DNA of 64,000 bases from Caenorhabditis elegans. Its lineage: Eukaryota > Nematoda > Chromadorea > Rhabditida > Rhabditidae. Where the stretch lies: positions 1,364,001-1,428,000 of the forward strand of contig NC_003279.8 in assembly GCF_000002985.6 (NCBI RefSeq). The letters run 5' to 3'. The notes under the pieces were generated by a model. That model was given only the letters and a program-made list of their open reading frames with translations. It was not told the origin of the DNA and did no database searches. Shown here one piece after another: positions 13,018 through 28,759 of this stretch. Each line of letters starts with the position of its first letter. Position 1 is the first letter of the stretch. The position numbers and the translations under genes were made by a program.

Positions 13018-15603
13018 CTCAAAATATTCGGAGCAATAACCATTGCCAAATTAGAAGTATCCATTTTAGTTTTTGCAACAACTTCTTCTCGACTTAAATC
13101 CTGTAGTAATGCAATTACTCGCACAAGTACTAATCGATTAATTTCTGGTAATAAATCGACTAATCGTATTGCTTCAGCAGGATTTTCTGCAGCGACCAGC
13201 GCTCTTTGATAGAGAGTCGGAAGAATTAATGGAACGGGAAGCTGGCGGAGCCATAGTTTTAAAAGTCCCGCCGGCACATTTGCGTCGTGCATTTTTGGGG
13301 CGAGCCAACCGTCCAGTTGTCCTCGAGCTGTTGCAAGTTGTTCTGGATCCCCGGCAACTCTGAAATTCTTATTGTGGAATTAGGGGCGAATTCGAATTTT
13401 TTTTTTCAGGTCGCAAAATTTTTAAATATCGTAATCAAGGGTGTCATTTTTCAATGTTTTTCGGTTAAAATCGAAAAATCGAAAAAAGAAAAAGTTCAGA
13501 AAATTAAAGGTGGACTACGCTCAGTGGAGAAATTGCTTTAAAACACGTCTATGGGGCCACAATGACCGAATATTATGATTAAAAAAATTCAAAAAAATTT
13601 TTTAGATTTTATATGATTTTTTGAAAATTGGAAAAATCTCAGTTTTCACCTAATTATTTTTGAATTTCCGCCAATTGGATTTGTTCGGTGGAGCGCGCTT
13701 GCATTATTTTAATTAATTAATTTTATTTATTCTCGTTATTTGACTGAGTTTTTTTTCATTTTCTATGGTTTTTCCTCGGAAAATGGAAGAAATAAACAAG
13801 ACAAATGCAAAACGTTTGTTAAAAAGTAATTGAAAATGAGTAAAAATCAGATATTCTGAGTTCCGACGACAACAAGCCTGAAATTAGTATATTTCACAGT
13901 TTTTTACTCATTTTCAATTACTTTTTAACAAACGTTTTGCATATTTGTCTTGTTTATTTCTTCCATTTTCCGAGGAAAAAACATAGAAAATGAAGAAAAT
14001 CAGTCAAATAACGAGAATAAATAAAATTAATTAATAAAAAATAATGCAAGCGCGCTCCACCGAACAAATCCAATTGGCGGAAATTCAAAAATAATTAGGT
14101 GAAAACTGAGATTTTTCCAATTTTCAAAAAATCATATAAAATCTAAAAAATTTTTTTGAATTTTTTTTATCATGATATTCGGTCATTGTGGCCCCATAGA
14201 CGTGTTTTAAAGCAATTTCTCCACTGAGCGTAGTCCACCTTTAACCATAAAATATGATTTTTTATCTATCATAATTTTGTTTTTATTGATAAGAAAAACA
14301 TTTAAATTTCTTCTAAAAAGAAGAATAATGGCCAAAATATTGAGCTAATTTTTGAAAAATCGAAAAATGTTCGTTTTTCGATTTTCTGAAAAAATCGAAA
14401 AAACTGACAGCCTTGATCGTAATTATTGCGGAAAACGGTACTTTTAAAAAAATTTAATTTTCCAAAATTTCAAAATTTACTGGTTTTTCCTTGGGAATTT
14501 GGTTAAATATTTTTTAATTAAAAAATCCGAAATTCGAATTTTTTTTGGATTTTTAGGAATTATTGGGAAGTTCTCTTTTTTTTTTCTCCAACCCCCCTCA
14601 GCTCTGCATAGGCCTAAGCCGAAGCCTAAGTCCAAGCCAATGCCTAAACCTAAGTCTAAGACTAAGACTTAGCTTAAACCTAAGTCTAAGACTAAGACTT
14701 AGCTTAAGCCTGAGTCTATGCACAAGCCTAAGCTTCAGCCTAAGCGTAAGCTTATCACTAAGCCTATTTTTTCTTATTTATGCTAATTTTTGTTGAAAGC
14801 TGAACATTTTTCATTTAACAAAAAATTAATGTTGACTTTCAGTAGCAAAATTTTTTTTTTAAATCGAATTTTTTGTGGAAAACCGTACACTTTGTCAAAA
14901 AAATCTCAATTTTCCAAAAAATTTAAGAATTTATTGGTTTTTCTTGTTTTTTTTATTAGAAAAAATTAACAAAAACATTGAAAATTATATATTAAATTTT
15001 AAAAATTGCTTTTTCAGAATTTTCCAGAGAATGCTTCAAAAAAATGTGTCAATAAATATTTGATTTCAACTTTTTTGGAATTTTTTTTAAAAGTAATTTT
15101 CTAAATTTTATATTTTTTACTTGAAAAAAAAAACATTTTTCTCTTTTTTTTTCAATTTTTTTGCTTTTTTTCCTGATAACTTCGGCTGAAAAATAGAATT
15201 TGTCTCAATTTTTCCACTCAAAAACCCGTACCGAAACAGCCCTTCAGTCCTCCGGCCCCCAGATTGATAAAGGAGCTCAATAAGAGTAGTCAAAAGCCAC
15301 GGAAGCTTCAACTCGGGGAATTTTTCAGATTGCATTTGCATGAGCTCTTCGAGTGAAGCCGAGAAGAGCGGCGGCCGGAATATATGAATTTTAGTCTCTT
15401 GAATTGTGGAAAGACTCGGTTTGAGTCGAGCAATCACTTTGCTCAGCCGTTTTATACATTGTTGGGAGAAATATGAAGTTGAGACTTCTGGAAGATCGAA
15501 TATTGGATCCAAATGCTTGTTTAGGAACTCGTTAAGCTTCTCGTTGATCGCTTCTGTTGGGAAAATGAATGCAAGCACTATTGCTAGAAGTTCCCAGCCT
15601 CGT
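13018..15603 (-). CDS. MyTH4 C-terminal part and RhoGAP domain of the Vilse/ARHGAP39-type gene (displaced middle exons)
   Basis: There are two exons on the minus strand, 15603-15232 and 13359-13018. The first starts in mid-codon, reading (x)RGWELLAIVLAFIFPTE, the C-terminal half of a MyTH4 domain, and runs into RhoGAP at LPWLLTTLIELLYQSGG. It ends at TEGLFR. The next exon continues VAGDPEQLATA, so the arginine-finger codon itself is split by the intron (CG/A). The core helices LLKLWLRQLPVPL and KMDTSNLAMVIAPN follow. RhoGAP domains stimulate GTP hydrolysis by Rho-family GTPases; Vilse acts on Rac in Robo-linked cytoskeletal control. The exon ends in phase 2 (LR with AG left over) and fits the terminal exon at 22403-22292, which lies upstream rather than downstream. 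The upstream phase-2 partner is missing: exon 3 at 25.3 kb ends in phase 0. The identity is firm, and the broken order is directly visible. Confidence 0.88.
13505..14245. repeat. 740-bp palindromic element, 'gtggccccatagacgtg' family
   Basis: The arms are near-perfect reverse complements centred near 13875. The outer ends carry aggtggactacgctcagtgg and ggccccatagacgtgtttta; internally each arm has a form of ggagcgcgcttgca. It lies in the intron between the two RhoGAP exons. A diverged relative is at 53.50-54.23 kb. Confidence 0.8.
14611..14767 (+). repeat. Degenerate interstitial telomere-like repeat (GCCTAA)n
   Basis: About 157 bases read as hexamers close to GCCTAA, the complement of the nematode telomere repeat TTAGGC: gcctaagccgaagcctaag, cctaagtctaagactaag and similar. 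Many units carry single substitutions, so it is an old tract. It lies in the intron between the RhoGAP exons. Confidence 0.7.
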
Positions 15604-15769
15604 CTGTAAAAAAAATTAATTTAATTCAAAAATTTCTGATTTTCTAAATAATTTTTTTTCTCTAATTTTTAGCTGTTTAAAAAATTAAAAAATCATAAAT
15701 TTTCCTATCGAAAAATTTAATTTTCAGCTAAAGTGGAAGTTTGAGGAAGTTTTTTCAACAAAAATCCCG

Positions 15770-28200: not shown

Positions 28201-28759
28201 ATGGAAAATCTGGTTTTAAAAATCAATTTTTCGATGAAAAATCCGAATTTTCCGGTTAAAAATCGTGATTTTTTTCGAATTTTTGAGTAATTTCATAGAA
28301 TTTTCGAATATTTTCTGGTAAAAAAAAATGGAATCAATTTTTTTGCAATATTAGCATAAAAATCAGCGAAAAATCCGAATTTTCAGATTAAAAATCGCGA
28401 ATTTTCCTATTTTTTGAGTAATTCAATAGGTTTTTTGAATTTTTTTTCTCAAAAAACTCGAACTATGGAAAATCTGGCTTTAAATATTTATTTTTCAACA
28501 AAAAATCCGCATTTTCAGGATTAAAAATCGTGATTTTCTCGAATTTCCAGCCCCCAAAAAACCCGAATAACTAAACTCACACACTGGCACCATGTGGCGG
28601 CTCCCATGCACACTGCCCCGTCACTAAATTGGCGTACATTGTCTGCCGTGACTGGGGCTCAACAATTTCGACCCAGTCGACGTTGGCGGCTCGTGAGCCC
28701 GTCGTACCGTTCTCGTAGAACTCGGCGCCCCCTTCTGATGTGCCACCATTTATGCTCAT
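25269..28759 (-). CDS. N-terminal part of the Vilse/ARHGAP39-type RhoGAP gene: tandem WW domains
   Basis: Exons on the minus strand are 28759-28581, 27296-27113 and 25445-25269, with phases that agree (2, 0, 0). The start is [20 protein letters not shown]1 spans about residues 27-56 (W29, WEPP near 52). WW2 spans about 67-96 and contains [19 protein letters not shown] with W91 and P94. It is followed by [18 protein letters not shown], a hallmark of Vilse/ARHGAP39. Exon 3 encodes a linker ending SSFE in phase 0. WW domains bind proline-rich ligands; in Vilse they link to Robo receptors. After 180 codons the gene should continue into an N-terminal MyTH4 segment, but no such exon is found. Splicing exon 3 directly to the 15.6 kb exon would shift the frame and soon meet a stop. 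The gene is therefore interrupted in this sequence. Confidence 0.88.
25735..27050. repeat. Large inverted repeat in the RhoGAP WW2-exon 3 intron
   Basis: Sequence from about 25735 (acatttttaagtcaagaaat, then taagcgaatttagcgttttg) returns inverted at about 26780-27000. The arms are several hundred bases long with moderate divergence and a centre near 26400. Transcripts of this intron could form a long hairpin. Confidence 0.7.
27310..28560. repeat. AT-rich tandem repeats in RhoGAP intron 1
   Basis: There are two groups. About 27330-27540 has three copies of a 60-70 bp unit with tttttatcagttttaatgg. About 27900-28540 has four or five copies of a roughly 110-200 bp unit containing aactatggaaaatctggctt. 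No coding potential is seen. Confidence 0.6.

Follow-up and report, generated by a model that had tools for sequence, protein, structure and literature searches.

We analyzed the exon organization of two neighboring genes, a RhoGAP gene and CDKAL1, in Caenorhabditis elegans. The window is the whole 64,000-nucleotide stretch of DNA analyzed (chromosome I of the N2 reference, contig NC_003279.8, positions 1,364,001 to 1,428,000), and positions are those of the window unless prefixed with C1. On the minus strand, the RhoGAP gene begins with a WW1 exon carrying the start codon (28581..28759; open reading frame and splice donor), followed by a WW2 exon (27113..27296; Pfam WW and splice sites), a linker exon (25269..25445), and the terminal exon with the stop codon (22292..22403; the 22.4-kb exon), which is misplaced upstream of the catalytic exons. 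CDKAL1 exons 1 (20990..21057, with the start codon) and 2 (19545..19717, with the first UPF0004 cysteine) come next, and then the exon encoding the C-terminal half of MyTH4 and the start of RhoGAP with its arginine finger, TEGLFR (15232..15603; the 15.6-kb exon), and the exon encoding the remainder of the RhoGAP domain (13018..13359; the 13.4-kb exon). All six RhoGAP exons found have open frames, and the exons of both genes listed here, which have canonical splice sites, lie at the places and in the order given by the first-pass annotation.

Proteins of the ARHGAP39/Vilse type are laid out as WW-WW-linker-MyTH4-RhoGAP-conserved tail. Taken alone, the WW2 and WW1 exons scored below the Pfam cut-off for WW of 26.9 bits (26.8 and 17.5 bits, respectively), and the joined WW1-WW2-linker sequence gave two WW stretches with 40.7 bits. 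Against human ARHGAP39, identity was 59% over 34 aa for the WW1 exon and 67% over 55 aa for the WW2 exon. The 13.4-kb exon covers positions 23–144 of the 148 of Pfam RhoGAP, and the joined exons cover 1–147 with 90.7 bits. The MyTH4 match in the 15.6-kb exon spans positions 36–90 of 105 and is thus incomplete, and because of this we file the exons, judged by their sequence, as pieces of an ARHGAP39-type gene rather than as an intact member.

The donor at 13018 leaves AG and the acceptor at 22403 supplies A, forming the codon AGA (R); the tail that follows resembles the human ARHGAP39 C-terminus, with 68% of 37 aligned aa identical. Because of this resemblance, the true order is 15.6 – 13.4 – 22.4 kb, as the first-pass annotation had argued. 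It had also reported the N-terminal MyTH4 exons as missing, which is borne out since splice phases clash (the linker exon ends in phase 0, whereas the 15.6-kb exon requires a 2-base remainder) and since whole-genome C. elegans searches with the MyTH4 N-half matched C5 and C6 only, matches taken to be paralogous MyTH4 genes. The terminal exon is not duplicated downstream of 13.0 kb, and the proposed swap stands in this respect: its sole match in 144 kb is at 22.4 kb, other matches to its region having E of 1.6 or more. Searches of other genome-contig and viral-contig collections with the RhoGAP part revealed no external copy of the locus. We also considered a functional gene built from the exons in the given order and found no support for it: the linker-to-terminal junction in cis is out of frame and adds 48 new residues before a stop, the linker joined to the 15.6-kb exon reaches a stop after 23 residues, and CDKAL1 exon 2 joined to the 15.6- or 13.4-kb exon stops early.

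CDKAL1 is broken as well as RhoGAP, a point that goes beyond the first-pass annotation. Its exons 3–7 lie outside the window on the plus strand (C1:1348505-1358416), opposite to exons 1–2 and 25–35 kb off; exon 3, the continuation of exon 2, occupies C1:1348505-1348740, leaving a gap of 34.8 kb between the two. The minus-strand exon 2 and the plus-strand exon 3 have compatible splice phases, and joining exons 1–2 to 3–7 yields an uninterrupted 543-aa protein whose frame is kept across the strands. This protein matches positions 1–419 of the 421 of TIGR01578 with 437.5 bits (cut-off, 314.7), exons 1–2 covering 1–31 and exons 3–7 covering 34–419, the latter alone exceeding the cut-off (390.9 bits). 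In Pfam terms, exon 2 contains positions 1–32 of the 98 of UPF0004, and the joined protein contains UPF0004 (1–85/98), Radical_SAM (2–166/166), and a TRAM match of 20.8 bits, marginally under the cut-off of 21. The locus name Y92H12BL.2, of clone Y92H12, is listed with CDKAL1 as human homologue (PMC3636199). The earlier placement of CDKAL1 exons 1–2 between RhoGAP exons was correct, but its view of CDKAL1 as a bystander was not, given exons 3–7 on the plus strand. Likewise, its summary that two blocks are swapped holds for the swap and falls short of the full event, which includes an inverted block of about 27.8 kb with CDKAL1 exons 3–7 and the loss of the MyTH4 N-half. The rearrangement needs at least three inversions (the reversal distance for three blocks is 3), or an inversion, a transposition, and a deletion.

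At the breaks, and also beyond what the first-pass annotation noticed, lie three copies of a palindromic transposon of about 793 bp: R1 is 68 bp from a break exon, R2 (12196..12987) is 30 bp from the 13018 donor, and R3 (24422..25209), whose low end is shortened, is about 59 bp from the linker exon. When six elements were placed at random relative to six break-facing exon edges, three elements fell within 70 bp of break edges in 3 of 200,000 placings, the 70-bp limit having been set after seeing the data. A target-site duplication score of at least 5 was reached by 16 of 23 other copies vs none of R1–R3, R3 among them having no matching duplication in place. The 23 copies came from the 30 best-scoring loci plus the 144 kb, counted once each; a 700-base filter removed a gapped copy at C1:1419423 and partial copies at locus ends. 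When the flanks of R1–R3 were re-paired (15 pairs tested), a flush 15-bp sequence, TTTTCCCAGATATTC, was common to the high-side flank of R2 and the low-side flank of R3. This S2a/S2b pair scored 15, and none of 1012 mismatched pairs scored as high. The shared flush duplication shows that the RhoGAP exon at 13.0 kb and the terminal-exon block at 22.4 kb once flanked one element. It also gives non-coding support to the first-pass conclusion that the order is wrong, whether from a genuine rearrangement or because the assembly is faulty and has lost sequence.

The other pairings described here scored lower, and no conclusion is drawn from them. Flanks B and C have 12 bases in common, displaced by 10 bases from flush (score 7, attained by 0.6% of mismatched pairs), C and D agree one base off flush (5.5; 2.0%), and A and D share CAAT one base off flush (3.5; 9.7%). 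Flanks A and C agree by eye at four of five bases with a score of 2.0 (39%); this is the pairing predicted by the proposed order of events, and its lack of support is a point against that detailed order. The arms of the R palindromes were tried as a marker of chimeric copies and discarded: likeness within a copy was no greater than between copies, and an arm's own counterpart was its best partner in 0 of 52 arms.

A fourth junction, J, can be placed by inference at 18442/18443, where no R copy is present. It coincides with P2 (17609..18442), a near-perfect palindrome with arms of about 410 nt, the sole difference being a 2-nt indel, outermost few bases aside. Away from the outer edge, the arms have no substitutions in about 409 compared positions, the highest identity among 43 self-palindrome rows in the 144 kb, and a small repeat is truncated by the outer edge of P2 at 18442. 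Near-perfect arms are not unique to P2: at 13504–14244 lies a palindrome with outer arms of 207 nt that are also 99% alike (two differences), although its identity as a whole is 93.3%. That palindrome is a member of a family with many full-length copies.

We consider it highly probable (about 0.9) that RhoGAP and CDKAL1 were ancestrally collinear and that palindromes were the sites at which this locus was scrambled. The starting arrangement would have been RhoGAP (WW1 – WW2 – linker – MyTH4 – RhoGAP – terminal) followed by CDKAL1 exons 1–7 on the same strand. At R1, R2, and R3 the DNA may have broken, been joined falsely, or recombined, with the result that the CDKAL1-body block was inverted and the block of the terminal exon and CDKAL1 exons 1–2 was moved; the two inner ends would then have been joined at J by fold-back at P2, with loss of the MyTH4-N sequence. 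The site of the event could have been a yeast artificial chromosome, its subclones, or the assembly. Palindromes make clones unstable and are places where assemblies break, and Y clones are yeast artificial chromosomes. That the scramble arose in this way, living N2 worms having both genes intact, has about an even chance, and we rate it slightly likelier than an origin in the worm. If worms have working genes, the canonical splice sites and open frames of the RhoGAP exons are what one would expect, and a deletion in a clone fits because MyTH4-N is absent from the searched genome sequence. According to Yoshimura et al. 2019, there are reportedly over 100 structural discrepancies between N2 and VC2010, most of them N2 deficiencies. 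The C. elegans reference was built on DNA cloned in bacteria and yeast (PMC8982018). Counting against a reference error, Nanopore assemblies of VC2010 are reported to be in excellent agreement with the reference, and the same report describes no large unaligned regions that would account for the size difference (PMC5793790). A defect of the RhoGAP-CDKAL1 size need not appear in such a comparison. Two further points speak against a reference error: J, which carries no R copy, looks like a genuine fold-back duplication whose edge cuts off a repeat, and eri-6/7 is an N2 precedent for a real event of a like kind. A pure ordering error is disfavored because it would not create the fold-back J.

An origin of the scramble in the N2 worm has a little less than an even chance, and it could have left the genes in different states. 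That both genes were broken by a genuine rearrangement in the N2 lineage, in which R copies recombined, fold-back made J, and MyTH4-N was deleted, is unlikely in our estimation, as is the consequence that RhoGAP and CDKAL1 would be lost or weakened in N2. Such an event would account for the unmatched duplications of R1–R3 with one re-paired, the substitution-free fold-back at J that tops the 43 rows, and a MyTH4-N found nowhere in the genome save the C5 and C6 matches; moreover, two Bristol assemblies are reported to differ by 39 inversions, four of them over 29 kb (PMC10634987). However, no exon found of either gene has a stop or frameshift, and the three-block reversal distance of 3 demands several separate exchanges in a short time. 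For four N2 mutation-accumulation lines, the calls described include no inversions, in a study that sought new mutations and had poor inversion recall and is therefore uninformative here (PMC13322394). Alternatively, the rearrangement may be real and CDKAL1 kept working by trans-splicing of opposite-strand transcripts, as a second eri-6/7-like locus; we find this quite improbable, including the corollary that the locus would be so young that a target-site duplication still reveals former neighbors. In its favor, both CDKAL1 parts are intact and keep the reading frame despite lying on opposite strands, with exons 2 and 3 about 35 kb apart, and eri-6/7 in N2 has inverted first exons and a trans-spliced mRNA (PMC12258893, PMC3213143), but RhoGAP is not restorable in this way from the available genome sequence, since MyTH4-N is missing and the linker is out of frame with the 15.6-kb exon.

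A collapsed tandem duplication, which we regard as very improbable, would place two S2a-R-S2b blocks joined through J in the worm; S2a-J-S2b and S2b-R-S2a would then both be true, and the assembly would have kept one copy opened at R. This accounts both for the contiguous, R-free sequence at J and for the 15-bp duplication that links S2b to S2a through R, but leaves the opposite strand of CDKAL1 exons 3–7 unexplained. The 15.6-kb exon is single in the reference, as expected under a collapse, an observation of little weight.

Should the reference be in error, a false sequence underlies the gene models, orthology calls, and RNAi or CRISPR designs for the worm ARHGAP39 and CDKAL1, and other places may conceal similar palindrome-bound errors. 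A correct reference would make N2, the standard laboratory worm, a natural mutant for a Rac/Cdc42 GAP and perhaps also for a tRNA-modifying enzyme, unless the latter is repaired by trans-splicing. CDKAL1 is tied to type 2 diabetes (PMC6321623). In addition, re-paired target-site flanks offer a cheap test for scrambled loci that needs the sequence alone.

Compared with the ARHGAP39/Vilse (CrossGAP) Rac/Cdc42 GAPs, the RhoGAP gene has WW and tail similarity to the human sequence, whereas in the C. elegans reference its exon order is broken and the MyTH4 N-half is absent. Similarly, the joined CDKAL1 pieces match the tRNA ms2t6A37 methylthiotransferase family (TIGR01578) at full length, but the reference has exons 1–2 and 3–7 on opposite strands. 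Long reads have exposed structural errors in the N2 reference that are likewise bounded by repeats, in sequence that had been passed through bacteria and yeast, but the cases described are mainly expanded tandem repeats, with none at the RhoGAP-CDKAL1 place among them (PMC5793790, PMC8982018). The inversion at eri-6/7 is thought to have followed transposable-element invasion, the ancestral state being a single orientation (PMC12258893), and its mRNA is produced by trans-splicing (PMC3213143). Unlike eri-6/7, the RhoGAP-CDKAL1 locus involves two neighboring genes, a moved block, missing coding sequence, and repeats that are palindromes; in both cases the first exons of one gene are oriented opposite to its remaining exons, at eri-6/7 in N2 (PMC12258893) and at RhoGAP-CDKAL1 in the reference.

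We examined 144 kb of chromosome I of the N2 reference (C1:1304001-1448000), namely the window (C1:1364001-1428000) plus 60 kb to its left and 20 kb to its right. Six exons of an ARHGAP39/Vilse-type RhoGAP gene, each with canonical splice sites and an open frame, lie on the minus strand of the window: WW1 (28759-28581), WW2 (27296-27113), linker (25445-25269), terminal (22403-22292; "22.4", by window kb), MyTH4-C/RhoGAP-N (15603-15232; "15.6"), and RhoGAP-C (13359-13018; "13.4"). Identity to the human ARHGAP39 sequence used for comparison was 59% for WW1, 67% for WW2, and 68% for the C-terminal tail. 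Joined as 15.6-13.4-22.4, the exons formed a single open frame to the stop codon, in which the RhoGAP domain scored 90.7 bits; WW1, WW2, and the linker formed a second, separate open frame. The MyTH4 match begins only at domain position 36, and the splice phases of the linker and 15.6 exons are incompatible. Whole-genome searches for the MyTH4 N-half (the Pfam model and two human stretches, first-look candidates all scored), which may miss a short or very divergent exon, matched contigs C5 and C6 only, and these matches are taken to be putative paralogous MyTH4 genes. Taken together, these results indicate that at least one exon is missing between the linker and 15.6, as the first-pass annotation had stated for the N-terminal MyTH4 exons.

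CDKAL1 is cut in two. Exons 1 (window 21057-20990) and 2 (window 19717-19545) are on the minus strand, and exons 3 to 7 are on the plus strand (C1:1348505-1348740, 1350806-1351174, 1354195-1354340, 1356082-1356371, and 1358067-1358416), with 34.8 kb between exons 2 and 3. The seven joined exons encode 543 residues with no interruption and match TIGR01578 over positions 1-419 (437.5 bits), positions 1-31 coming from exons 1-2 and 34-419 from exons 3-7; UPF0004 is divided likewise (1-31 and 34-85). Without exon 2, the protein lacks WGC, which holds the first conserved N-terminal cysteine, and an in-frame reading back from exon 3 meets a stop before any start codon. A 2013 paper gives CDKAL1 as the human homologue of Y92H12BL.2 (PMC3636199). 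A ~35-bp tandem array (CCGGCAATTTGCCG...) of ~1 kb occupies most of CDKAL1 intron 1 (window 19740-20720, minus strand), a similar array lies at window 10118-10818, and the space from the RhoGAP stop codon to CDKAL1 exon 1 contains a ~22-bp array (AATTCGAATTTTGGACT...; window 21710-22203).

Copies of R, a palindromic transposon of ~793 bp with ends CACTGCAAC...GTTGCAGTG, were found at three breaks. R1 (C1:1347643-1348436) stops 68 bp short of CDKAL1 exon 3; the 13018 donor is 30 bp away from R2 (window 12196-12987), and the linker donor is ~59 bp away from R3 (window 24422-25209). With six elements placed at random, 3 of 200,000 trials brought three of them within 70 bp (a limit chosen after the fact) of the six exon edges that face the breaks; no trial brought a higher number. 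Among the matches listed (40 of 303 whole-genome candidates scored), R copies were 92-95% identical to R1 and occurred on C1-C5; two on C4 (1607713-1608507 and 1609482-1610276) are ~1 kb apart, one with a clean 12-bp target-site duplication and the other with none. The 144 kb holds six R copies, of which one is internally gapped, and is palindrome-rich (43 self-palindrome rows of at least 300 bp, some overlapping). Another palindromic family of ~741 bp, with many full-length copies genome-wide, is present in the intron between 15.6 and 13.4 (window 13504-14244). Two plus-strand ORF stretches (window 7155-7424 and 11448-11690, the second ~500 bp from R2) resemble exons of what we take to be a diphosphoinositol-polyphosphate type Nudix hydrolase.

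With J as the inferred fourth junction, the breaks delimit blocks S0 (left of R1), S1 (R1-R2), S2a (R2-J, with 15.6 and 13.4), S2b (J-R3, with 22.4 and CDKAL1 exons 1-2), and S3 (right of R3). A direct duplication adjoining the element (score of at least 5) was found in 16 of the 23 other R copies tested, mostly of 5 bp and some of 12-16 bp; the own flanks of R1, R2, and R3 scored 2.0, 1.5, and 1.0. Re-pairing these flanks gave a single outstanding pair, the low side of R3 (S2b) with the high side of R2 (S2a), which have TTTTCCCAGATATTC in common (15/15, directly abutting the element in both flanks); all 1012 mismatched pairs scored lower (highest, 11.5). The remaining pairings were weak, and the pair of flanks A and C, expected at the left end under the full reconstruction, scored just 2.0. 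The shared 15 bp indicates that S2b-R-S2a was once contiguous, so that the 13.4 exon was followed by R and then by the terminal exon. Non-coding DNA thus yields the same exon order as the protein demands, and the first-pass proposal that the terminal exon belongs after 13.4 is borne out by both the open frame and the duplication.

No R copy was found between 15.6 and CDKAL1 exon 2. This interval contains the palindrome P2 (window 17609-18442), whose ~410-nt arms differ solely by a 2-nt indel, the outermost few bases excepted. Its identity (98.3%) is the top of the 43 rows (next, 95.2%); shorter near-perfect arms occur elsewhere, as in the 207-nt outer arms at window 13504-14244, which differ at 2 positions. 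No second full-length copy was found among 40 of 491 candidates scored, and relatives match P2 in part only. The low-side arm terminates in a small many-copy repeat, which recurs in the high-side arm minus its first 19 bases. We infer that P2 is a fold-back duplication, joined to the CDKAL1 side at its outer edge (18442/18443). If P2 formed in the worm, zero substitutions over ~409 positions bound its age at under roughly 1.5 million generations (2.5e-9 mutations per site).

We consider it about 90% probable that an ancestral RhoGAP-CDKAL1 locus was scrambled, with junctions at palindromes. The ancestral order would have been S0, inverted S1, S2b, S2a, the missing MyTH4-N, and S3, against S0, S1, S2a, S2b, and S3 in the reference, and the junctions lie at palindromes, the fourth presumably at P2. 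The computed minimum for the three inner blocks is three reversals; a single inversion, together with a relocation of S2b and a deletion plus fold-back at J, would also suffice.

The scramble may have arisen in the reference or in the worm. The chance of a reference error seems to us about even: every exon found of either gene is intact, coding sequence (MyTH4-N) is missing, and palindromic DNA is unstable when cloned and disrupts assemblies. Furthermore, PMC8982018 states that the reference derives from clones in bacteria and yeast and that VC2010 contains at least 53 further genes. A real event in the N2 worm falls a little short of even odds, with a small remainder assigned to neither. In favour of a real event, J has the look of a genuine fold-back, published nanopore assemblies agree well with the reference (PMC5793790), and 39 inversions, four of them over 29 kb, distinguish two Bristol assemblies (PMC10634987). 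The RhoGAP part detected no relatives of the locus in the two DNA collections scanned. The scramble may well be known already; we found no description in the literature on C. elegans reference assemblies, Y92H12, and nematode ARHGAP39/Vilse/CDKAL1, most subscription journals falling outside this scope. Also in favour of a real event, N2 already has a counterpart at eri-6/7, where the first exons are inverted (PMC12258893) and trans-splicing produces the mRNA (PMC3213143).
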